From NCBI RefSeq assembly GCF_016862895.1, contig NZ_BONV01000046.1, positions 1 through 59,147 on the forward strand: a DNA stretch of 59,147 nucleotides. Reading direction: 5' to 3'. The notes beneath the pieces were generated by a model. The model saw only the letters and a program-made list of their open reading frames with translations. It searched no databases and was not told the DNA's origin. The position numbers and the translations under genes were made by a program. This stretch comes from Planotetraspora kaengkrachanensis. GTDB taxonomy: Bacteria; Actinomycetota; Actinomycetes; Streptosporangiales; Streptosporangiaceae. Shown piece by piece: positions 434-10,344 of this stretch (its first letter is position 1; the number at the start of each line of letters is the position of its first letter).

Positions 434-1528
434 GTGGCGCGTGCGTGGGCGGAGATGCCGATCGGCCGAGCCGTACGCATAGCCGGGGTGGACCCCGAGG
501 CCGTTTCGCTCTCGCTGGAGGCGCTGCCCGCCGACGCGCCGGCCGTCCTCACCTACGCCGCCACCGCGCAGAAAAGCGCGTCCGCCATGGTCGAGGCGGT
601 GCTCTCGGAGCTCGAGTCGGCCGCCGTCTCCCTCTATCCGGCCTGGTTGCCGGAGGCCGAGGGGATCGCGCCCGGAGGAGCGGGAGCCGCCGCCGTCCGG
701 GTGCTCGCTCTCGAGATGGCGTCCGCCAGCCGTCACTTCGGCCCTTTCGTGGCCGATCTCGCCCAGGACTCGCTCCGGGGTGGGTCCACGGGACGCACCC
801 GGTTCCCGCCTGAGGTGCGCGCCGCCGGTCTCGCCCGCGTCCTCGCCGCCGCCTTCGACAGCCGTCAGGTGGCGCTGCTCGTCGACGTGCCCGAGGGACT
901 GTCCTCCCGGGATGAGGACGTGCTGGTCGCGGGATGTGAATGGCTGGCGCACCGGGGCCCGATGGGCGTCTGGCTGACCGGGGCGCCGTTGATCGCCGCC
1001 GACCGGGTCGAGACCGTGACGGTACGGCTCCCCGCCGAGATGGCCGCCATCGCGTGTGATCTGCCGCAGGCGACCGCGCCTCCGGCCGTGATCGCTCACA
1101 CCCCCGCAGGCCCCCTCCGGCCGGTCGGCGGCGGGCCCGCCATCCGCTATCCGGCGGTGACGGGCCGCCCCCATCCAGCGAGCGAGGCCGAGCAGGCGCT
1201 GGAGGCGGCCCTCTCGTCGCGTGACTGGGCCGCCGGCCGGGTCTGGAACCACAACCACCAGACCCATCCGCTGGCCGAGGTCATCCGGCCCGACCTCATG
1301 TGGCGCAGAGAGCGGTGCGTGGTCGAGATCGACGGCCCCGAGCATCGCGGCGCCTTCCGCTACGAAGCCGACAGACGGCGCGACGTGCAACTCCAGCTCG
1401 ACGGATATGCCGTTCTTCGCTTCACCAACGACCAGATCGCCTCCGATTTGGAAACGGTAGTCCGCCAGCTCGAGCGGTTCGTCACGAGCCGCCGCGTTGG
1501 AACGTTCGAAGGATCACATCATGACTGA
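434..1528 (+). CDS. DUF559-type (Vsr/PD-(D/E)xK) nuclease protein
   Basis: This 364-residue protein has a C-terminal nuclease-like domain at about residues 248-350. It shows the DUF559/Vsr pattern: an acidic residue early (SEAEQALE), RPDLMW near 285, VVEIDG near 297, YEADRRRD near 310 and VLRFT near 327. DUF559 domains are related to very-short-patch and restriction endonucleases, so the inferred role is DNA cleavage. The N-terminal 240 residues match no family I can name; LLVDVPEG...VWLTG looks faintly like a degenerate P-loop fold. GTG 434 is chosen because AGGTGA lies at good spacing; ATG 455 is an alternative. The gene overlaps the next by 8 bp and heads a three-gene unit. Confidence 0.75.
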   Translation: MARAWAEMPIGRAVRIAGVDPEAVSLSLEALPADAPAVLTYAATAQKSASAMVEAVLSELESAAVSLYPAWLPEAEGIAPGGAGAAAVRVLALEMASASRHFGPFVADLAQDSLRGGSTGRTRFPPEVRAAGLARVLAAAFDSRQVALLVDVPEGLSSRDEDVLVAGCEWLAHRGPMGVWLTGAPLIAADRVETVTVRLPAEMAAIACDLPQATAPPAVIAHTPAGPLRPVGGGPAIRYPAVTGRPHPASEAEQALEAALSSRDWAAGRVWNHNHQTHPLAEVIRPDLMWRRERCVVEIDGPEHRGAFRYEADRRRDVQLQLDGYAVLRFTNDQIASDLETVVRQLERFVTSRRVGTFEGSHHD

Positions 1529-2129
1529 CTCGAAATTGTCCCTGCCGGAAATCGCCGCCCTCGTCGTCCTCATGGTCGAGGCCGGTGAGATCTCCAATCC
1601 CGATCTGCGCAAGCGCCACGGCATCACGCTGGACGGCAGGGCCCGCCTCCACTTGAACGAGCTGAAGCTGGTCGACAGCTGGAAACAGGGGCGTGCCTAC
1701 GTTCACGTGCTGACCGACGCCGGCTGGGCGCGCGTGGCAGAGGAGTTCCGCGCCGGCACGGTCACGTCGACCGGCTCGCCGTGGGCGATGGCCCGGGCGC
1801 TCATGGGCGGCCTGCAGGAGTTCATGGAGCGGACCGACCGCAGACTGGCGGACGTCTTCGGGCCCGCGTCCGACGCCGAGGCCCTCATCCGGGAGGCGTA
1901 CGCGGAACTCGTCCTGGAGCCGGGCGGCTGGGTGAGCCTCACGGAACTCCGGGTGCTGCTCCGCGACGTCACGAGGTCGAAGGTCGACGAGACGCTCAGG
2001 CGGATGGCCGCCATGCCCGACGTGAACATCGTCCCGGAGTCGAACCAGAAGGCCCTCCGCCGGCGCGACAGGGAGGCGGCGCTGGTCATCGGCGATCAGG
2101 ACAAGCACCTCATCTCGATCGGAGCATGA
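1521..2129 (+). CDS. Small helix-rich protein of the nuclease-HerA unit
   Basis: This 202-residue protein of unrecognised family lies between the nuclease and the HerA-type ATPase. The N-terminal part (LPEIAALVVLMVEAGEISNPDLRKRHGI, then a predicted helix and a VHVLTDAGW hairpin) resembles a winged helix, suggesting DNA binding or an adaptor role. The C-terminal half is helical and charged (TRSKVDETLRRMAAM). ATG 1521 is preferred over the in-frame ATG at 1497 because it overlaps the upstream stop by only 8 bp. Its end overlaps the next start as ATGA. The winged-helix reading is an inference from pattern, not from a known homolog. Confidence 0.7.
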   Translation: MTDSKLSLPEIAALVVLMVEAGEISNPDLRKRHGITLDGRARLHLNELKLVDSWKQGRAYVHVLTDAGWARVAEEFRAGTVTSTGSPWAMARALMGGLQEFMERTDRRLADVFGPASDAEALIREAYAELVLEPGGWVSLTELRVLLRDVTRSKVDETLRRMAAMPDVNIVPESNQKALRRRDREAALVIGDQDKHLISIGA

Positions 2130-5100
2130 TGACGGCCGACGCGAACACCGCGCTCTCCGCGCTCACGTTCAACTGGGCGTCCGGCCCCGACGACGTCTGG
2201 AGCCCGTCGCTCTTCCACGTCGAGGCGCTGAACCGGCCGACCGCGCAGGCGGTCCTCGACGGGGTGGGCGAGGCCGCGCGGAGCTCGGGAACGAGCCCGA
2301 TCGGGCTGGTCGTCGAGGGTCAGCGCGGGGTGGGCAAGACGCACCTGCTCGGCTGGGTGCGGGAGAAGGTCCAGGAAGAGGGCGGCTACTTCTTCCTCGT
2401 CGAGCTTTTCGACGCCGGCACGTTCTGGGTCAACGTCGTGAACTCGATGATGGACAACCTGTCGCGCGAACTGGACGGCGAGAGCCAGCTCAAGGCCTTC
2501 CTGCGCCGCATCTCGTCACAGGTGGGCGTGTCCAGGATGGTGCGACGCGCGGTGATCGGCGACACACCGGTGACCGCGGAGGCCCTCGACGTCTTCATCG
2601 AGGCGCTGCGCGGCTTCGACGGGCACATCGGCAGGGAGAGCCAGGACGTCGCGAGGGCTCTCGTGCTCCGCGCCTCCAAGGATCCGCACAATCAGGACGT
2701 CGCGGATGCTCTGCTCTATTCGCAGCCGGAAGAGGAGCCGGGGGATCGCGCGCGCTGGGGCATACGGCGGGGGGCACGCTTTCCGCAGGAGATCGTCAGG
2801 GACCTGTCCCGCCTGCTCGCGCTCACCGGTCCCTCCGTCATCGCGGTCGACCAGATCGACGCCCTCGTCTCCACGGCGACGACGAGGACGTTGGACCGCA
2901 CGGGCGACTGGCGGGAGGCGTTGGTGGTGGACCAGGTCGCGGGCGGCCTCATGGCGCTGCGCGAGGTCACCAGACGTACTCTGACCGTGCTCTCGTGCAT
3001 TCCGGCGACGTGGGCGCTCATCAGGACGAACGCCACCGACACGGTGCAGGACCGGTTCCGCAGGCCGGTTCAGCTCAAGGCCGTCCCCGACGCGGAGACC
3101 GGCCGCGCCCTGGTCGAACGACGGCTCGGGGCGCACTACCGCTCCGTGGGCTTCCGGCCGCCCCATCCGTCCTGGCCGGTCAGGCCGAGCGCCTTCGACT
3201 CCGTTCCCGGTCTCACCCCGCGGCAGATCCTGATGAGGATCGACGCCCACATCCGGTCCTGCCGGGCCGCCGGTGAGATCACGGAGCTGGAGAGCTTCGA
3301 CGGCGCGGGTGCCACGGCGCCCGTGCATGTCCCCACGCCTGGTCTCGTGGCGCCCGAATCCGATCTCGGCGGGCTGGACGCCCGGTACGCCGAGCTGAGG
3401 AGCACGGCGCAGGTCGACGCGGAGGCCGCGGCGGCGCTCGATCCGGCCACGGAGGACGCCGCGATGCCGGCCCTCCTGTCGGCCGGGCTCGCCGCGTGGA
3501 TCGCCGAGCGGGGGGAGAACGGGAGGACGTTCAGCCAGGACGCCCCGCCCAGCGCGAAGCCGCCCCTGCACGCGCGTCTGCGGCGGTCCCTCGACGAGAT
3601 CACGGAAGACGAGGAGCACTGGGGCTTCCGCGCGATCGCGGCGACACACGCCAACGCCGCCCTCACCCGGTTGCGCAACGCGTCGGTCGCGGCGGCGCTG
3701 GATCCCGCCCGGGGCAAACGCAGGTTGTTCGTGCTCCGCAACGCCGAATGGTCGGGCGGCGCCAAGACTCGGGAGGCCGTCGCGGCCTTCGAGCAGGCGG
3801 GCGGCAGGACGCTGCGGGCCGAGGAGGAGGACCTGAAGACCCTCGCGGCGCTCAAAGGCCTGCTGACGGAGAATCCTCCCACGCTGCAGGCGTGGCTCGC
3901 CGCCAGACGGCCGACCGGCGAGATCAAGCTGCTGGCCGACGCGCTCGGCGATACCTGGACCGTTCCGTACGGCCCGTCCGGCGCCGGAGCGGACGACGCG
4001 TCGCCGTCCCCGGTGGCCGCCCTTGAATCAGGGAGCGGCCGGATGGTCCCGGCCGGCGAGGACGTCGGCGCGCCCACCGTCCAGGCCGACCGGGTCGCCA
4101 CGGGCGCGGATCCCTCGCCGGACTCTCGGGAGACCTCGGGCATGCCGAAGGAGGCCAGGACGCCGGTCGTCTCGGAGCTCGTGGACGGCGCGGACGTCCC
4201 GTCGATCGTGATCGGGACGACCGCCGGCCGGGTCCCCGTCCGAGTCGGCCTCGAGGCGCTGCGGAAACACACGTCGATCTTCGCCGGCTCGGGTTCGGGG
4301 AAGACCGTGCTGATCCGCCGGCTGATCGAGGAGTGTGCGCTTGAGGGTGTGTCGGCCATCGTGCTCGACCCCAACAACGACCTCGCGCGTCTCGGCGACC
4401 GCTGGCCGGAGCGGCCGGATCAGTGGGGGGACGGCGACGCGGACAAGGCCGAGCGCTACCTCGCGGGCACCGACGTCACGGTCTGGACGCCCGGCCGGAT
4501 CGGCGGACGTCCGCTGGCCTTCCAGCCGCTCCCGGACTTCAGCGGAGTGCTGGACGACGCGGACGAGTTCAGAGAGGCCGTCGACGCGGCGGTCTCCTCG
4601 CTGGTGCCGAGGGCGAAGCTCGAGGGCAACGCGCAGAAGGCCCACCGCGGCCGGGCGGTCCTGAAGGAGGCGGTCGAGTACTACGGGCGTCACGGGACCG
4701 CCGGCCTGCACGGCCTGATCGCGCTGCTGTCGGAACTGCCCGAAGGAGTGAGCTCGCTCGCCGGCGCCGACAAGATCGCGGCGGAGATCGCGCAGAACCT
4801 CACCGCCACGATGGTCAGCGATCCGCTGTTCGGCGGCGAAGGCGCGGCGGCCGACCCCGGTGTGCTGCTGACCCCGCCGCCGGGCAAACGGGCACGCATC
4901 TCGGTGATCAGCTTCGTCGGACTGCCGTCCGACGAGCAGCGGCAGAGCTTCGTCAACCTGCTGCAGCTCGCGTTGTTCTCCTGGATCAGAAGACATCCGG
5001 CCGGCGACCGGCCGCTGGGCGGCCTGTTCGTGATGGACGAGGCGCAGACGTTCGCGCCGTCCGGAGCCATGACCGCGTGCACGCACAGCACGCTGGCGCT

Positions 5101-5422
5101 CGCCTCCCAGGCCCGCAAGTACGGCCTCGGCCTCGTCTTCGCGACGCAGGCCCCGAAGGGACTGCACAACCGGATCCCGGGGAACTCCGCCACCCAGTTC
5201 TTCGGGCTGCTCAACAGCCCCGCCCAGATCGAGGCGGCCAAGGAGGTGGCCAGGTCCAAGAACAGCACCATCGGGGACGTCGGGCACCTCGGTCCCGGAG
5301 AGTTCTACGCCGGCGTCGAGGGGACGGCGTTCGCCAGGATCCAGGCGCCGCTGTGCCTGTCCCACCACCCGAGGAGCCCGCTGACGACGGAGGAGGTCAT
5401 CGAGAGGGCAAGAAAACTGTAG
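2126..5422 (+). CDS. Fused AAA ATPase - HerA-type DNA translocase
   Basis: This 1098-residue protein has two nucleotide-binding modules. The first has Walker A GQRGVGKT (about 65-72) and Walker B VIAVDQID (about 237), resembling Orc/STAND-like AAA ATPases. The second has Walker A GSGSGKT (about 722), Walker B GLFVMDEAQ (about 966) and the downstream FATQAPKG segment (about 1005) of HerA/FtsK-family translocases. HerA enzymes form hexameric rings that pump DNA and work with a nuclease, classically NurA; here the neighbour is a DUF559 nuclease instead. About 480 residues separate the modules, including a Pro/Ala/Ser-rich linker near 620-690. ATG 2126 overlaps the previous stop as ATGA, implying translational coupling. 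Confidence 0.85.
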   Translation: MMTADANTALSALTFNWASGPDDVWSPSLFHVEALNRPTAQAVLDGVGEAARSSGTSPIGLVVEGQRGVGKTHLLGWVREKVQEEGGYFFLVELFDAGTFWVNVVNSMMDNLSRELDGESQLKAFLRRISSQVGVSRMVRRAVIGDTPVTAEALDVFIEALRGFDGHIGRESQDVARALVLRASKDPHNQDVADALLYSQPEEEPGDRARWGIRRGARFPQEIVRDLSRLLALTGPSVIAVDQIDALVSTATTRTLDRTGDWREALVVDQVAGGLMALREVTRRTLTVLSCIPATWALIRTNATDTVQDRFRRPVQLKAVPDAETGRALVERRLGAHYRSVGFRPPHPSWPVRPSAFDSVPGLTPRQILMRIDAHIRSCRAAGEITELESFDGAGATAPVHVPTPGLVAPESDLGGLDARYAELRSTAQVDAEAAAALDPATEDAAMPALLSAGLAAWIAERGENGRTFSQDAPPSAKPPLHARLRRSLDEITEDEEHWGFRAIAATHANAALTRLRNASVAAALDPARGKRRLFVLRNAEWSGGAKTREAVAAFEQAGGRTLRAEEEDLKTLAALKGLLTENPPTLQAWLAARRPTGEIKLLADALGDTWTVPYGPSGAGADDASPSPVAALESGSGRMVPAGEDVGAPTVQADRVATGADPSPDSRETSGMPKEARTPVVSELVDGADVPSIVIGTTAGRVPVRVGLEALRKHTSIFAGSGSGKTVLIRRLIEECALEGVSAIVLDPNNDLARLGDRWPERPDQWGDGDADKAERYLAGTDVTVWTPGRIGGRPLAFQPLPDFSGVLDDADEFREAVDAAVSSLVPRAKLEGNAQKAHRGRAVLKEAVEYYGRHGTAGLHGLIALLSELPEGVSSLAGADKIAAEIAQNLTATMVSDPLFGGEGAAADPGVLLTPPPGKRARISVISFVGLPSDEQRQSFVNLLQLALFSWIRRHPAGDRPLGGLFVMDEAQTFAPSGAMTACTHSTLALASQARKYGLGLVFATQAPKGLHNRIPGNSATQFFGLLNSPAQIEAAKEVARSKNSTIGDVGHLGPGEFYAGVEGTAFARIQAPLCLSHHPRSPLTTEEVIERARKL

Positions 5423-5497
5423 GTTCGCGCAAAAGCACCTGAACGCCACAATAGGTACGGTAGTTCGAAAGCTCCCGGAATCGAGTGAAGGCGGTAG

Positions 5498-5986
5498 GTG
5501 CAGGTGGAGGTCGAACAGACGGCGCTGCCGGGAATCGGGCTGCGGCACGAGTTCACGACACGGTCGGGGCGGCGCATCGGCGTGGTCTCCCACCGGACCG
5601 GCCGCCGCGACCTGGTGATCTACGACCCCGATGATCCCGACCGCGCCTGCGAGACCGTGAAGCTCAACGACGAGGAGGCCGACGCGCTCGCCGAGCTGCT
5701 CGGCGCTCCTCGCATCGTCCAGCGCCTCAACGACCTGCATCGCGAGGTCGAGGGGCTGGTCAGCCTGCAGCTGCCGATCACGCCCGGCTCGCCGTACGCC
5801 GGCCGGCCGATGGGCGACGCGCGCGTCCGCACCAGGACCGGCGCGTCCATCGTGGCGATCGTCCGCTCGGGGCTGGTCGCCGCCAGCCCCGGGCCCGAGT
5901 TCATGCTGGCCGACGGTGACGTCGTCGTGGTGGTGGGCAGCCCGGAAAGCACCGCCGCCGTCGCCGACATCCTGTCCAACGGTTAG
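5498..5986 (+). CDS. TrkA-C/RCK_C regulatory subunit (KhtT-like)
   Basis: This 162-residue soluble protein ends in an RCK_C/TrkA_C domain at about 85-160 (GRPMGDARVRTRTGASIVAIVR...DGDVVVVVGS). The N-terminal part resembles the KhtT N-terminal domain. In Bacillus, KhtT is the gating subunit of the KhtU K+(cation)/H+ antiporter. The next gene, 8 bp downstream, is such an antiporter, so the pair is a two-gene unit. The start is GTG 5498, with an AAGGCGG-like ribosome site just upstream. Its ligand cannot be read from sequence. Confidence 0.85.
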   Translation: MQVEVEQTALPGIGLRHEFTTRSGRRIGVVSHRTGRRDLVIYDPDDPDRACETVKLNDEEADALAELLGAPRIVQRLNDLHREVEGLVSLQLPITPGSPYAGRPMGDARVRTRTGASIVAIVRSGLVAASPGPEFMLADGDVVVVVGSPESTAAVADILSNG

Positions 5987-5994
5987 GCCGGCCT

Positions 5995-7155
5995 GTGCAC
6001 GAAACAGCAATACTGTTCCTGGAATTCGGCGCGGTGGTTCTCGGGCTCGGCATCCTCGGTGCGTTAGCCCTGCGTGTGGGAATCTCGCCCATCCCCCTCT
6101 ATCTGATCGCCGGGCTGGCGTTCGGCACGGGCGGCATCCTGCCGCTCGCGACCAGCGAGGAGTTCATCTCCGTCGGAGCCGAGCTCGGCGTCATCCTCCT
6201 GCTGCTGACCCTCGGCCTCGAGTACAACGCGGGCGAGCTCGTGACCAGCCTCAAGGGCAACGCCCGCGCGGGGCTCGTCGACGTCGTGCTCAACGCCGTG
6301 CCGGGCGCGGTGTTCGCGCTGCTGCTCGGATGGGGCCCGGTCGCCGCCCTCGCCATGGCCGGCGTCACCTACGCGACGTCGTCGGGCATCACGGCCAAGG
6401 TCCTGTCGGACCTCGGCTGGATCGGCAACAGGGAGACCCCCGTGGTCCTGTCGCTGCTCGTCTTCGAAGACCTGACCATGGCGATCTACCTTCCGGTCCT
6501 GACGGCCGTGCTCGCCGGGCTGAGCTTCGTCAGCGGTGCGATCACGGTCGCGATCGCCCTGGCGACGGTCAGCGTCGTGCTGGTGGTCGCACTGCGCTTC
6601 GGGAGGTTCATCCAGGCGTTCGTCGAGAGCCCCAACTCCGAGGTGCTCCTGCTGAAGGTGGTCGGCCTCGCCCTGCTGGTCGCGGGAGTGGCGCAACAAC
6701 TGCAGGTGTCCGCGGCGGTGGGCGCGTTCCTCGTCGGCATCGCCCTGTCGGGCAAACTCGCAGAGGACGCGCAGGCATTGCTCGCCCCGCTGCGCGACCT
6801 GTTCGCCGCGGTGTTCTTCGTGTTCTTCGGCCTGCAGACCGACCCGGCCAAGATCGGGCCCGTCGTCTGGCTCGCGGCGGTGCTCGCGGTCGTCACCATG
6901 ATCACCAAGTTGCTCTCGGGCGCGTACGCCGCCCGCAGGGCGGGCATCGCGAGAGCGGGATGGGCCCGCGCCGGCATCGCGCTGATCCCCCGGGGCGAGT
7001 TCAACATCGTGATCGCCGGGCTGGCCGTGGCGGCCGGCGCCCATCCCGATCTCGGGCCGGTCGCGGCCGCGTACGTGCTCATCCTGGCGGCGTTCGGCCC
7101 GCTCGCCGCGCGGCTGGTCCAGCCGTTCATCACCGCCATCGCCAAACGGGCCTGA
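5995..7155 (+). CDS. CPA2-family cation/proton antiporter (KhtU/KefB-like)
   Basis: This 386-residue, strongly hydrophobic protein has about 12 predicted membrane segments. It carries the CPA2 signatures GLAFGTGGILPL, LLLTLGLEYN, SAAVGAFLVGIALSG and FFVFFGLQTDP. It should exchange K+ or Na+ for H+ and matches the length of B. subtilis KhtU. It follows the KhtT-like regulator by 8 bp and starts at GTG 5995. Codon 24 (6064-6066) is TTA, rare in high-GC actinomycetes and there read by the bldA tRNA, so translation may be tied to development. Confidence 0.88.
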   Translation: MHETAILFLEFGAVVLGLGILGALALRVGISPIPLYLIAGLAFGTGGILPLATSEEFISVGAELGVILLLLTLGLEYNAGELVTSLKGNARAGLVDVVLNAVPGAVFALLLGWGPVAALAMAGVTYATSSGITAKVLSDLGWIGNRETPVVLSLLVFEDLTMAIYLPVLTAVLAGLSFVSGAITVAIALATVSVVLVVALRFGRFIQAFVESPNSEVLLLKVVGLALLVAGVAQQLQVSAAVGAFLVGIALSGKLAEDAQALLAPLRDLFAAVFFVFFGLQTDPAKIGPVVWLAAVLAVVTMITKLLSGAYAARRAGIARAGWARAGIALIPRGEFNIVIAGLAVAAGAHPDLGPVAAAYVLILAAFGPLAARLVQPFITAIAKRA

Positions 7156-7194
7156 CGGAGATCGGCAGCGTGCTCCGGGGGTAGGTGCTTCGGC

Positions 7195-7472
7195 GTGGCG
7201 GACAGACTCGAGCCCTACCGAGGCAAGCGCGACCCCCGGCGCACGCGTGAGCCGATCCCCGAGACGTCGCCCGAGGTGTCCATCTCGCTCGCCAGGCTGT
7301 CTCCGGGAGCGCACCATGCGTCAACAGACCGACGCACTGAGCGATCGAGGGCCTGCGGGCCGTACGGCAGGCGGCGCGCGAGCAGGGCCTGCCCGGCGTG
7401 GTGGGCAAGCGGCTCGGCTCTCCTTACGAGCCGGGAGGGGAATCGGCCGCGTGGATCTTCCTGCCCGCCTGA
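7195..7472 (+). pseudogene. Remnant of LigD-type DNA ligase
   Basis: Two pieces of an NHEJ-type ligase survive in different frames. From GTG 7195 the reading LEPYRGKRDPRRTREP matches the start of a LigD 3'-phosphoesterase domain. From 7341 to 7472, in another frame and without a start codon, the reading contains GLPGVVGKRLGSPYEPG...WIF, which matches the GVVAKRLdSpYrpG segment of the ATP-dependent ligase adenylation domain. Everything between these landmarks in a functional enzyme, several hundred codons, is missing. This is therefore a deleted and frameshifted remnant. Confidence 0.7.
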
Positions 7473-7500
7473 GCGGGGTCGTGCCCGGACGGGAGCGGGC

Positions 7501-7935
7501 TCAGGAGCGGCCGGGGGACAGCTCGCACCCGAGCTGGGCGTAGAGCTCGAGCTGGTCGAAGTACACACGGTGCGTGACGATCAGGCCGTCTTCCAGCGCG
7601 TATGCCGCGCAGCCGCGCACGGTGATGCGGCGTCCTGTGCCCTCGAGCGTGTCGCCGTCGGGCAGCCACAAGGGTCCGGTGTGCGTCCCGTTCATGGTCC
7701 ATTCGGTGAAGACCGGATCCCCGGGAAGCATCTGGTGCCAAGGGGTGAAGGTGAGATCGGGGAAGGCGACGAAAATGTGCTCGTAAAGCCAGGCGATCTC
7801 CGCGGCCCCCTCGGCGACGCCCACGGGAGTGACAAGGACGGCGCCGGGGTGGAAATGCCGTAACAGCTCTCCGGTGTCGTGTTTGTTGATCGCGCCGTAG
7901 AACAGGTCGGTCATGTTCCGGGCATCGGGCGTCAT
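7501..7935 (-). CDS. SnoaL-like (NTF2-fold) protein
   Basis: This 144-residue single-domain protein has the SnoaL/NTF2-like pattern: NMTDLFYGAINKHDTGELLRHFHPGAVLVTP near the start, PDLTFTPW in the middle and THRVYFDQLELYAQLG at the end. Family members include polyketide cyclases, isomerases and many of unknown activity, so the substrate cannot be predicted. It is convergent with the LigD remnant and divergent from the SDR gene. ATG 7911 is an alternative start. Confidence 0.75.
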   Translation of the reverse strand: MTPDARNMTDLFYGAINKHDTGELLRHFHPGAVLVTPVGVAEGAAEIAWLYEHIFVAFPDLTFTPWHQMLPGDPVFTEWTMNGTHTGPLWLPDGDTLEGTGRRITVRGCAAYALEDGLIVTHRVYFDQLELYAQLGCELSPGRS

Positions 7936-8118
7936 GCGTGCCCCCTCGAAGTCATGCGGATTTTCAAGCTATCGAGCCGTGCGCAAAGGACTGTTCAAGA
8001 TCGTCCGCCTCGTCCGTGCGCCGTGCCGTCCGATGTCGCCGTCCGCGTCGGCGTACGGGGACCCGCGCCAGGAAGCGGCACTCAGGGGTGGCACGGCAGG
8101 CATGGGTAGGGAACCGGC

Positions 8119-8913
8119 ATGCACATCGACCTCGCAGGACGCACGGCCTTCGTCAGCGGTTCCACGCACGGGATCGGCCGCGTGATCGCGGCCGGGCTGG
8201 CGGCCGCCGGGGCGTACACGGTGATCAACGGCAGGAGTGCGGACAGCGTCGACTCGGTCGTCGGGGAACTGCGGGCCGCCGATCCGCGGGCCAGGATCGA
8301 CGGGATCGCCGCCGATGTCTCGACGCCGGAGGGGGCGGCGACCGTGTTCGGCGCGCTACCCGCCGTGGACGTCCTCATCAACAACCTCGGGATCTACGCG
8401 CCTCAGCCGGTGCTGGAGATCGACGACGAGACCTGGCAGCGCTACTGGAACGTCAACGTCATGTCGGGGGTGCGGCTGGCACGCCACTACCTGCCCGGCA
8501 TGCGTGACCGCGGATGGGGACGCGTCCAGTTCATGGCCAGCGAGTCCGCGGTGGTGATCCCCGAGGAGATGGTCCACTACGGCGTGACGAAGACGGCGCT
8601 GCTCGGGGTGTCGCGCGGGTTCGCCAAGGCGATGGCGGGAACCGGGGTGACCGTCAACGCCGTGATCGCCGGCCCGACGCGGAGCGAGGGCGTCGAGGAG
8701 TTCATCCGCGGGCTCCTCGGCGAGGATCTGCCCTGGGAGCGGGCCGAGGCCGAGTTCATGAAGCGGATGCGCCCGACGTCGCTGATCAAGCGGCTGATCG
8801 ACCCGGAGGAGATCGCCAACATGGTGGTCTATCTCAGTTCCGACCTCGCCTCGGCGACCACGGGGGGCGCACTGCGCGTGGACGGCGGCTGCGCCGACCA
8901 CATCCTCCCGTGA
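8119..8913 (+). CDS. SDR family NAD(P)-dependent oxidoreductase
   Basis: This 264-residue classical short-chain dehydrogenase has a glycine-rich cofactor motif near the start (GSTHGIGR), the NNLG motif near 92, a serine in MASES and the catalytic YxxxK as YGVTKTAL near 154-161. The end (GGALRVDGG) is also typical. The residue after the second beta strand (NGRS) suggests NADP(H), by inference. A GGGTAGGGA ribosome site precedes ATG 8119. The gene stands alone and its substrate is unknown. Confidence 0.88.
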   Translation: MHIDLAGRTAFVSGSTHGIGRVIAAGLAAAGAYTVINGRSADSVDSVVGELRAADPRARIDGIAADVSTPEGAATVFGALPAVDVLINNLGIYAPQPVLEIDDETWQRYWNVNVMSGVRLARHYLPGMRDRGWGRVQFMASESAVVIPEEMVHYGVTKTALLGVSRGFAKAMAGTGVTVNAVIAGPTRSEGVEEFIRGLLGEDLPWERAEAEFMKRMRPTSLIKRLIDPEEIANMVVYLSSDLASATTGGALRVDGGCADHILP

Positions 8914-8991
8914 GGATCTCCTGCGGGCGCCCCGGGGTCCCCGCCGAGCACGGCACGGCGGGGACCTGAGGCCGGACGGCCCGGACGGGAC

Positions 8992-10344
8992 TCACGGACG
9001 CCCGGGCAGCCGGTAGTTCTCGTCGAGGGCGGCGCCGCGCTCGGGCTTGTACAGGTCGTAGCCGCGGGCGTTGCACTGCAGTCCGCCGTTGATGCAGTGG
9101 GTGACCAGGGCGGCCAGCGTCGCGGGGTCCCAGGCGTTGAAGAAGTCATAGTGCCAGGTGTAGCCGCGACCGCTGGACAGCCTCACCTGCGACATGTCCC
9201 CGTCGGCCGGGAAAGCGATCTTGTATTCGAGCATCGGCACGGCGACGGGATGCGTCGTCGGGCACTCGCCGTTGACGGGGTAGGCCATGTGGCTCTTGTG
9301 ATCGGCGCTGTCGAGGTGGACGCCGTCCCAGCAGCTCGGAGCCTGATAGCGGACGTTGAGCTGGCTCCCGGCCGGGCAGGAGGCGGGGAAGTCCCAGTTG
9401 TGGAAGCTCTCCCCGCACTCCCAGCCTTCGACCGCGCCAGGGGCGTGCTGGAAGTCGGACAGAGTGGCGGTCGGACTGCCGACGACGTACCGGAGGCCCT
9501 GCGGGAACGGCCGCACGGAGGTGTAGTCGAGCACGCCGGACTTGTAATAGAGCACCTGCGGGCCGACCGGCACGATGAGCTGGTCGCCCTTGTAGACCGG
9601 GGGGAACCAGTAGCTCGACTTGTCGGCGGGGACGACGCACGACGTGCCTCCCGCCAGGAGGGACGCGAGCGTGGAGCTCGCCGTGGTCGTCACGTTGCCC
9701 ACGAACGTGTGCATGTGCGACGCGCCCGGCAGGCCGGGGAAGACGATCGGGTCGTCGGGACGGCTCTGGGTCACGCTGCAGTTGGCCTGGAACTCGTGGT
9801 GGGTGACCAGGGACGTGCCCGTGGGGGAGGGGGTCGGAGCCGGCGACCCGCCGGTCCCGTAGATCTTGAACTCCCAGAGGGAGTAGCCGTAGCCGGTGGC
9901 TCGTGCGGTTGCGTAGAGGCGGACGTAGCGGCCGGTTCCGGTGAGGGTGATGGTCTGGGTTCCGCCGGTCGCGGTGGTGGTGCTGTAGGCGTCGGTCCAG
10001 GTGGCGCCGTTGGTGGAGGTCTGGATTTTGAAGGCGGTGGCGTAGGCCGCTTCCCAGGTCAGGACGGCCTGGCTGATCGTCGCGGTGGCTCCCAGGTCGA
10101 CCTGCAGCCACTGCGGATCGCTGAACGAACTCGCCCAGCGCGTTCCAGGGTTGCCGTCGACGGCGAGGTAGGCGGCGTAGGCCCCTCCTTCGCTGGACGA
10201 CGCGGTCGCCTGCCTGCCCTGTGACAGCAGGGTGTCGGCCGCGACGGCGGGGCTGACGACCGCGACCAGCGCCGCGACCACGGCGGCCGCGGCCGCGATG
10301 ACCAGCCCGAGCCGGAGCCGGCCGGGACTGCGGGGTGGGTGCAT
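8992..10344 (-). CDS. Secreted CBM32 + DUF1996 protein
   Basis: This 450-residue exported protein has a signal peptide (residues 1-36, hydrophobic core then SPAVAADT). It is followed by an F5/8 type C (CBM32, discoidin-like) domain at about 37-165, a short Pro/Thr linker and a DUF1996 domain at about 180-445 (ASHMHTFVGN, YWFPPVYKG, WDFPASCP). DUF1996 is found in secreted fungal and actinobacterial proteins; its activity is not established. The CBM copy is nearly identical in DNA to the first CBM of the GH16 protein at 14622. Two operator palindromes lie upstream (10399-10412 and 10588-10601), so it likely belongs to the LacI regulon. A GAGGAGAGG ribosome site precedes the ATG. Confidence 0.88.
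   Translation of the reverse strand: MHPPRSPGRLRLGLVIAAAAAVVAALVAVVSPAVAADTLLSQGRQATASSSEGGAYAAYLAVDGNPGTRWASSFSDPQWLQVDLGATATISQAVLTWEAAYATAFKIQTSTNGATWTDAYSTTTATGGTQTITLTGTGRYVRLYATARATGYGYSLWEFKIYGTGGSPAPTPSPTGTSLVTHHEFQANCSVTQSRPDDPIVFPGLPGASHMHTFVGNVTTTASSTLASLLAGGTSCVVPADKSSYWFPPVYKGDQLIVPVGPQVLYYKSGVLDYTSVRPFPQGLRYVVGSPTATLSDFQHAPGAVEGWECGESFHNWDFPASCPAGSQLNVRYQAPSCWDGVHLDSADHKSHMAYPVNGECPTTHPVAVPMLEYKIAFPADGDMSQVRLSSGRGYTWHYDFFNAWDPATLAALVTHCINGGLQCNARGYDLYKPERGAALDENYRLPGRP
9878..10147 (-). repeat. CBM32 DNA block, copy 1 (inverted relative to copy 2)
   Basis: This block, read on the minus strand, is almost base-for-base identical to 14862-15142 on the plus strand, with only a handful of differences in about 270 bp. 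The identity includes synonymous positions, far more than protein conservation requires. It encodes most of the CBM32 domain of the DUF1996 protein. The two copies form a large inverted repeat flanking the lacI-GH3 operon. Confidence 0.9.

Follow-up and report, generated by a model that had tools for sequence, protein, structure and literature searches.

The subject of this study is a three-gene operon, A-B-C, in a 59,147-nucleotide stretch of Planotetraspora kaengkrachanensis DNA (contig NZ_BONV01000046.1; hereafter, the window). Gene A encodes a DUF559-type nuclease, gene B a small adaptor with two predicted winged helices, and gene C a motor protein in which an AAA ATPase and a HerA ATPase are fused in one chain. 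Comparison of related loci reveals that B and C form a constant core, while the partner encoded beside them changes. What is new here is that outputs are exchanged while the adaptor-motor core stays fixed. We consider it probable, at roughly 70%, that A-B-C is an anti-invader defence system directed against phage, plasmid or conjugative-element DNA.

A total of 122 distinct C loci were compared: 41 from the family of the window, 63 of the best 80 relatives from a scan of GTDB species, two plasmid records, and 16 of 20 further regions. Duplicates (17 of the best 80 and 4 of the 20 regions) were left out, and the sample is biased to the closest relatives of the window. Partner labels were derived from Pfam and PADLOC scans of one to three members per class, with the rest assigned by BLAST similarity. 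The partner is a DUF559 protein in 83 loci, a DUF4365 protein with a second gene (PDC-M02) in 12, and a trypsin-STAND-WD40 protein in 11. The other loci contain a P-loop/TPR-like protein (4), a TIR protein with a ParA-CATASP protein (1), or no recognised partner (9), and two are interrupted by a contig edge. Six more regions outside the 122, five of them new and one a duplicate, include four with DUF559 and one with DUF4365.

Several of the alternative partners belong to recognised immune types. DUF4365 was detected above the Pfam cut-off in three loci (L061, L071 and L073), and the gene pair directly before B-C in L061 matches a PADLOC candidate system, PDC-M02, with 233 bits for PDC-M02A and 464 bits for PDC-M02B. 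In the SPARDA system, DUF4365 is described as DREN, the effector nuclease (PMC12205087). Trypsin, NACHT/STAND, WD40 and Trypco1 all score above the Pfam cut-off in L097, where the 1349-residue trypsin-STAND-WD40 protein and the Trypco1 gene (4577-8966, minus strand) adjoin B-C in place of A. A Trypco1 gene was called in nine of the 11 loci of this class, L176 among them; the family reportedly takes its name from genes that multicellular prokaryotes carry beside trypsin-like peptidases in their conflict systems (PMC7159879). TIR_2 and CATASP are above cut-off in the Actinophytocola oryzae locus (L152). Here, a TIR gene and a ParA-CATASP gene lie directly before B-C (7073-9317), the latter matching PDC-M28B with 101 bits. 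The P-loop/TPR-like class (L102, L132, L140 and L150) is weakly assigned, its matches to helix-turn-helix (L102 and L132), STAND and TPR families being all below the Pfam cut-offs.

The partner changes are distributed over the C phylogeny. A quick tree was built from 105 C proteins, and on it the seven partner classes require 10 changes (minimum 6), or 8 when the contig-edge class is removed. DUF559 alone requires 7 changes, 6 of which are forced by supported branches. The placement of L154, L155, L152 and L116 is unsure because of their long branches. The P-loop/TPR-like loci and three of the five loci without a partner in this tree are located inside DUF559 groups, while the other two, from Pseudonocardia, cluster with the DUF4365 loci of Kribbella. 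Two genomes carry two copies with different partners: one (G108) has a DUF4365 and a DUF559 locus (L073 and L196), and the other is that of Rhizocola hellebori (L125 and L132). Four loci (L141, L144, L153 and L178, of which the first three have mycobacterial titles) lack A upstream of B but keep B-C intact; L137, which is close to them in the C tree, has A, the likeness of these loci being judged by neighbour-gene sizes only.

The claim in an earlier note on this DNA that HerA is fused behind a second AAA module with its own Walker motifs is supported by both domain and residue conservation. The N-terminal part of C matches AAA_22 (residues 61-136) and AAA_16 (57-247), and its C-terminal part matches HerA/DUF87 (695-847, E 6.4e-11), all above the Pfam cut-off. 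Both P-loops contain a Walker A and a Walker B motif. All 121 C proteins compared, a set that leaves out L067, where C is split, share residues G65, G70, K71, T72, D242 and D245 of the first P-loop and G725, K726, T727, D971 and E972 of the second, and also Q995, R997 and Q1008. G721 is a glycine in 119 of these proteins and an alanine in two. The linker at approximately 610-690 is poorly conserved. The region preceding it (412-612) is well conserved, with no Pfam family above cut-off and no convincing match among PDB profiles (best E 0.014).

Gene A encodes a nuclease of the Vsr/DUF559 type, as the same note had proposed. Residues 280-348 match DUF559 above the Pfam cut-off (E 3.7e-12), and the sequence profile of A matches 3hrl (E 1.2e-10). 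An AlphaFold2 model built from 31 alignment rows (predicted local distance difference test score [pLDDT], 87; predicted template-modelling [pTM] score, 0.82) contains a nuclease fold in its C-terminal domain, which resembles 3hrl (template-modelling [TM] score 0.82 by target length, Foldseek E 0.032) and the catalytic domain of I-Bth0305I (3r3p; 0.71, E 0.038), both of which we take to be Vsr/EDxHD-type nuclease folds. A Foldseek search with the whole of A gave no match at E<=0.001. All 83 A proteins compared have the same residue at eight positions (E253, D287, E298, D300, H304, D313, R316 and D317). The N-terminal alpha/beta domain has weak, mostly P-loop-type Foldseek matches (best E 0.003); in profile comparisons, it matched neither the AAA part of C (E 0.11) nor the second gene of the DUF4365 pair (E 0.59). 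No NurA, DUF4297 or SIR2 match was found in A or B (Pfam, E<=0.1).

Searches with B gave no match in Pfam (E<=0.1), NCBIfam or PADLOC (both E<=1). Its AlphaFold2 model (39-row alignment; mean pLDDT 85, pTM 0.47) consists of two winged helices connected by a weak linker. The best PDB fold matches are mostly winged-helix regulators, the best with E 0.0012 and none at E<=0.001. A profile match to calmodulin (E ~1e-4, one helix-loop-helix) was judged to be due to chance because the model of B is a winged helix.

A, B and C are consecutive on the plus strand with overlaps of 8 bp (A/B) and 4 bp (B/C), in agreement with the suggestion that they act as one unit. The B-C spacing is -4 or -1 bp in 106 of the 120 loci with the pair resolved, and A and B overlap or abut in 54 of 81, with gene starts taken from a home-made gene caller. 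Since this spacing recurs, the tight coupling of the genes is not attributable to chance.

A sample of 200 genomes from the family of the window, its own genome included, contains 91 with a match to C at E<=0.001, and 77 of the 91 reach E<=1e-90. In a sample of 396 genomes of the phylum, C is present in 6 (E<=1e-30) and A in 3 (E<=1e-10), both counts including the window's own genome. A adjoins C in all three, and the other three genomes with C are without A. The GTDB species scan detected at least 583 relatives from 596 pattern matches; the titles of the best 80 all name actinomycetes. Outside the phylum, the whole A-B-C order is present on a mobilizable 1.57-Mb plasmid of Methylobacterium aquaticum, whose A, B and C proteins are 32, 31 and 38% identical to the closest reference proteins used. 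Flanking sequence was available for 41 loci of the family, that of the window among them; all 41 have C and B and 37 have A, with two genes in A's place in the remaining four. The conserved triplet that the earlier note had proposed to search for across actinomycetes is observed. These 41 loci fall into 18 neighbourhood groups sharing at least three flanking families; the number of groups drops to 13 when two shared families suffice and to 3 when one does. A consistent tie to a housekeeping locus, which that note had named beforehand as evidence against its interpretation, is therefore not seen: the triplet is not bound to one locus.

The operon most closely resembles the Orc/CDC6-type branch of the HerA/FtsK capture systems, which Rakesh, Aravind and Krishnan predicted computationally (PMC10853773), a theme repeated in PMC12839542. 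As described in the main text of the former, these systems combine an ATPase of the Orc/CDC6 type, two restriction endonucleases (REases) of which one is active and the other inactive, a HerA/FtsK ATPase and winged helices, and related Orc/CDC6 loci are linked to STAND and TIR (PMC10853773). The active REase is of one of two families, one as in AbiJ; the inactive REase is inserted after the AAA core, and HerA belongs to clades 2, 4 or 5 of the published tree (PMC10853773, main text). The window operon likewise contains an AAA ATPase, a HerA/FtsK ATPase, a predicted winged-helix protein and an active-looking nuclease of restriction type, the HerA/FtsK part being supported by the DUF87 match and the Walker lysine and acidic residues conserved throughout the C proteins, and the winged-helix part by the predicted fold of B. 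The conserved middle region of C has a position that would fit that of the inactive REase. A profile search with residues 8-400 of C gave no Orc1/Cdc6 structure among the best 60 of 76 matches (best E 0.037). Fusion of domains in various ways is common to both; a difference is that AAA and HerA are in one chain here. The nuclease is DUF559, and neither DUF559 nor DUF4365 is named in the main text of PMC10853773, although loci of either kind may be among the examples in its figures or supplements. A further difference is the change of partner around a fixed B-C core, which was mapped in the present analysis. The operon is probably a variant of the Orc/CDC6-type capture class and not a proven member. 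The earlier note was right about the kind of system, a probable defence role, and overstated its novelty: its view that the fusion and the middle gene match no described HerA system is too strong, because the combination of parts is that of this predicted class (PMC10853773). The analysis has not shown the operon to be the same as a defence system described before.

Other systems share fewer features with the operon. DUF4297-HerA, Sir2-HerA and related two-gene defences also pair a HerA ATPase with an operonic effector enzyme (PMC11291478). In contrast to these and to HerA-NurA, the partner in the window is DUF559, and A and B have no NurA, DUF4297 or SIR2 match in Pfam; unlike the two-gene defences, C has a second AAA module, and a third gene, B, is constant. 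The best PADLOC model for C is mad8 of the MADS system (62.2 bits, residues 703-1072, in the HerA half), followed by generic HerA. The MADS gene set comprises mad1-mad8 with a methyltransferase; the PADLOC matches of A, B and C include no other mad model. Pfam detected neither a methyltransferase nor a kinase among the four proteins downstream, the upstream side being beyond the contig end. The operon is related to PDC-M02 through the 12 of 122 relatives that have DUF4365 and a second gene directly before B-C, whereas the window has DUF559 and its operon no PDC-M02 match. DndFGH similarly contains a HerA/FtsK translocase, a winged-helix subunit (DndG) and a nuclease. However, no Dnd model is among the PADLOC matches of A, B and C at E<=1, and the multidomain core of DndH, as outlined in PMC10853773, was not seen in C by Pfam. 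Among the listed matches in the literature pairing DUF559 or DUF4365 with HerA (subscription papers and supplements lie outside this set), the A-B-C triplet is not named.

Several lines of evidence argue for defence. The catalytic residues are kept in all A and C proteins analysed, and A, where present in the phylum sample, always adjoins C. The partners change, in part to recognised immune types, and two genomes hold two copies with different partners. The presence of C is patchy (6 of 396) and its neighbourhoods are diverse, and the whole triplet occurs on a mobilizable plasmid. DUF4297-HerA provides a characterised precedent: assembly of the nuclease with the HerA hexamer is reported to switch on both activities, and the complex cuts dsDNA and protects against phage (PMC11291478). 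By analogy, C would probably assemble via its AAA and HerA modules into ring motors that translocate DNA. B may recruit or discriminate DNA with its two winged helices and couple C to the output. A would be the output nuclease, cutting once the motor complex engages foreign DNA and thereby protecting the cell. This output would be replaceable by other immune-type modules, with B and C held constant.

A number of observations weigh against a defence role, the evidence for which comes entirely from genomes. Searches of 50,697 phage records and of viral contigs yielded no relative. Transfer between families appears modest: 10 changes of family label are required on the C tree (minimum 7), and constraining 51 Streptosporangiaceae rows to stay together, a grouping picked after the tree was seen, gives a p-AU (approximately unbiased test) of 0.044. 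The five same-genus genomes among the matches listed all have C (the 89 genomes without a match are outside that list), and one site is common to seven loci of two genera, as could be so for a housekeeping gene. At nine of the 122 loci, no partner of B-C was recognised. In the 11 trypsin-STAND loci, the partner gene is transcribed divergently, so that its link to B-C is by position only.

The vicinity of the core provides no further support. For up to three genes on each side of the core at 31 loci, 171 proteins of 60-800 residues were gathered and 150 scanned. For the control, 20 regions of 12 kb were picked arbitrarily (17 of their 20 genomes also contribute to the 31 loci), and 150 of their 193 proteins were scanned. 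PADLOC matched 55 families at E<=1e-15 in the test set, with 3 or 4 members each among the 25 listed, compared to 24 families with 1 or 2 members each in the control. The listed test families are mostly one group, presumably kinase-type, that matches the same few proteins. There is no clear enrichment of PADLOC families near the core (150 versus 150 proteins, family counts compared with no formal test). Evidence from defence islands, co-occurrence with which the earlier note had proposed as a check, cannot be claimed for this operon.

A module for plasmid or chromosome maintenance or exclusion, Wadjet-like in effect and not in parts, would target plasmid or conjugating DNA instead of phages. 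The lack of phage-borne relatives is consistent with this function, and the authors of the capture-system study propose, in its main text, interception at segregation, transfer or packaging (PMC10853773). However, no SMC, relaxase or recombinase type was detected by Pfam among the seven window proteins scanned (the operon and the four downstream), and we regard such a role as unlikely, while noting that it is indistinguishable from phage defence by sequence alone. Alternatively, C and A could process or repair DNA ends, resecting the cell's own broken ends like HerA-NurA, with B loading the complex. HerA-NurA reportedly functions in end resection in archaea (PMC12977600), and both the five same-genus genomes and the site shared by seven loci would be in keeping with a cellular task. 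This possibility is also improbable, given that the nuclease is swapped for protease-STAND, TIR or P-loop/TPR-like proteins, or is absent, while B-C stay, that C is so rare in the phylum sample, and that A and B lack a NurA match. Lastly, B-C as a stand-alone regulator or motor with nuclease and immune genes as passive neighbours, which the loci without a partner and the opposite-strand partners would allow, is very improbable in view of the overlapping or abutting A-B pairs, the adjacency of A and C in the phylum sample, and the A-B-C order kept in another phylum at 31 to 38% identity.

An extension of the defence reading, which we put forward only tentatively, is that B-C is a portable sensor of invader DNA, an AAA-HerA motor with a tandem winged-helix adaptor, wired to at least five unrelated outputs, some of them non-cutting. 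These would be DUF559, the DUF4365/PDC-M02 pair, trypsin-STAND-WD40, the helix-turn-helix/P-loop/TPR-like proteins, and TIR with ParA-CATASP. DNA translocation might then serve as a danger signal to NLR-like (nucleotide-binding, leucine-rich-repeat receptor-like) proteins. AAA-coupled HerA capture systems are presented as predictions from genomes only in the main text of PMC10853773. The version described here is a compact set of three genes that is amenable to cloning and testing; it is common in one actinomycete family and also occurs in a second phylum. The natural replacement of its nuclease by other immune-type proteins offers a direct way to ask whether a DNA motor can be the sensing part of an immune system whose killing part is changed over evolution. 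This operon of a soil actinomycete points to a candidate bacterial immune machine with interchangeable weapons.

The positions of the genes and domains are given in Table 1.

Table 1. Genes and protein domains of the A-B-C operon (positions in the window).
Feature	Position	Strand	Description
Gene A	434-1528	+	GTG start, 364 aa; N-terminal alpha/beta domain and C-terminal DUF559 nuclease (Vsr/EDxHD-like PD-(D/E)XK)
DUF559 core of A (residues 280-348)	1271-1477	+	Pfam and conservation
Gene B	1521-2129	+	ATG start, 202 aa; two predicted winged-helix domains (~8-78, ~118-200) with a variable linker between
Gene C	2126-5422	+	ATG start, 1098 aa; in order, an AAA ATPase, a conserved middle domain, a Pro-rich linker that varies and a HerA ATPase
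AAA_16/AAA_22 ATPase domain of C (residues 57-247)	2294-2866	+	Walker A 65-72, Walker B 242-245
Conserved middle domain of C (residues 412-612)	3359-3961	+	Without Pfam or PDB family
HerA/DUF87 translocase domain of C (residues 695-1098)	4208-5419	+	Walker A 721-727, Walker B 971-972

The window is an entire contig (C46) of an 8.77-Mb genome, and the nearest relatives at the operon locus are from Planotetraspora (Streptosporangiaceae). A minisatellite with a 21-bp unit (4.4 copies at 3-94, within the stretch 3-110) is located at the contig end and is the likely reason why the assembly stops there. Its use as a sign of an accessory region is not upheld; further gene families are present upstream of A in the same-genus relatives L034, L035, L036 and L060. 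The open reading frame at 7195-7863, which had been read as a LigD remnant with the same meaning, has no Pfam family at E<=1, and its first residues resemble, by eye, what we assume to be the start of the LigD phosphoesterase motif.

In Tsukamurella tyrosinosolvens (NZ_LR134464.1; L155, 4522-13560), A-B-C is accompanied by a VapB antitoxin/PIN pair, a DEAD/DEAH helicase and others. All of them lie within 9.4 kb that separate rplN from rpsQ, two genes that are normally direct neighbours in the ribosomal operon. Because of the ribosomal protein genes on it, this record, named plasmid 22, is perhaps chromosomal.

The four genes downstream of C in the window encode TrkA_C, Na/H exchanger, SnoaL and SDR proteins (Pfam). 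The TrkA_C and Na/H exchanger gene pair (5498-7155) is directly 3' of C, and both families are also found downstream of C in L034, L035, L036, L060 and L063.

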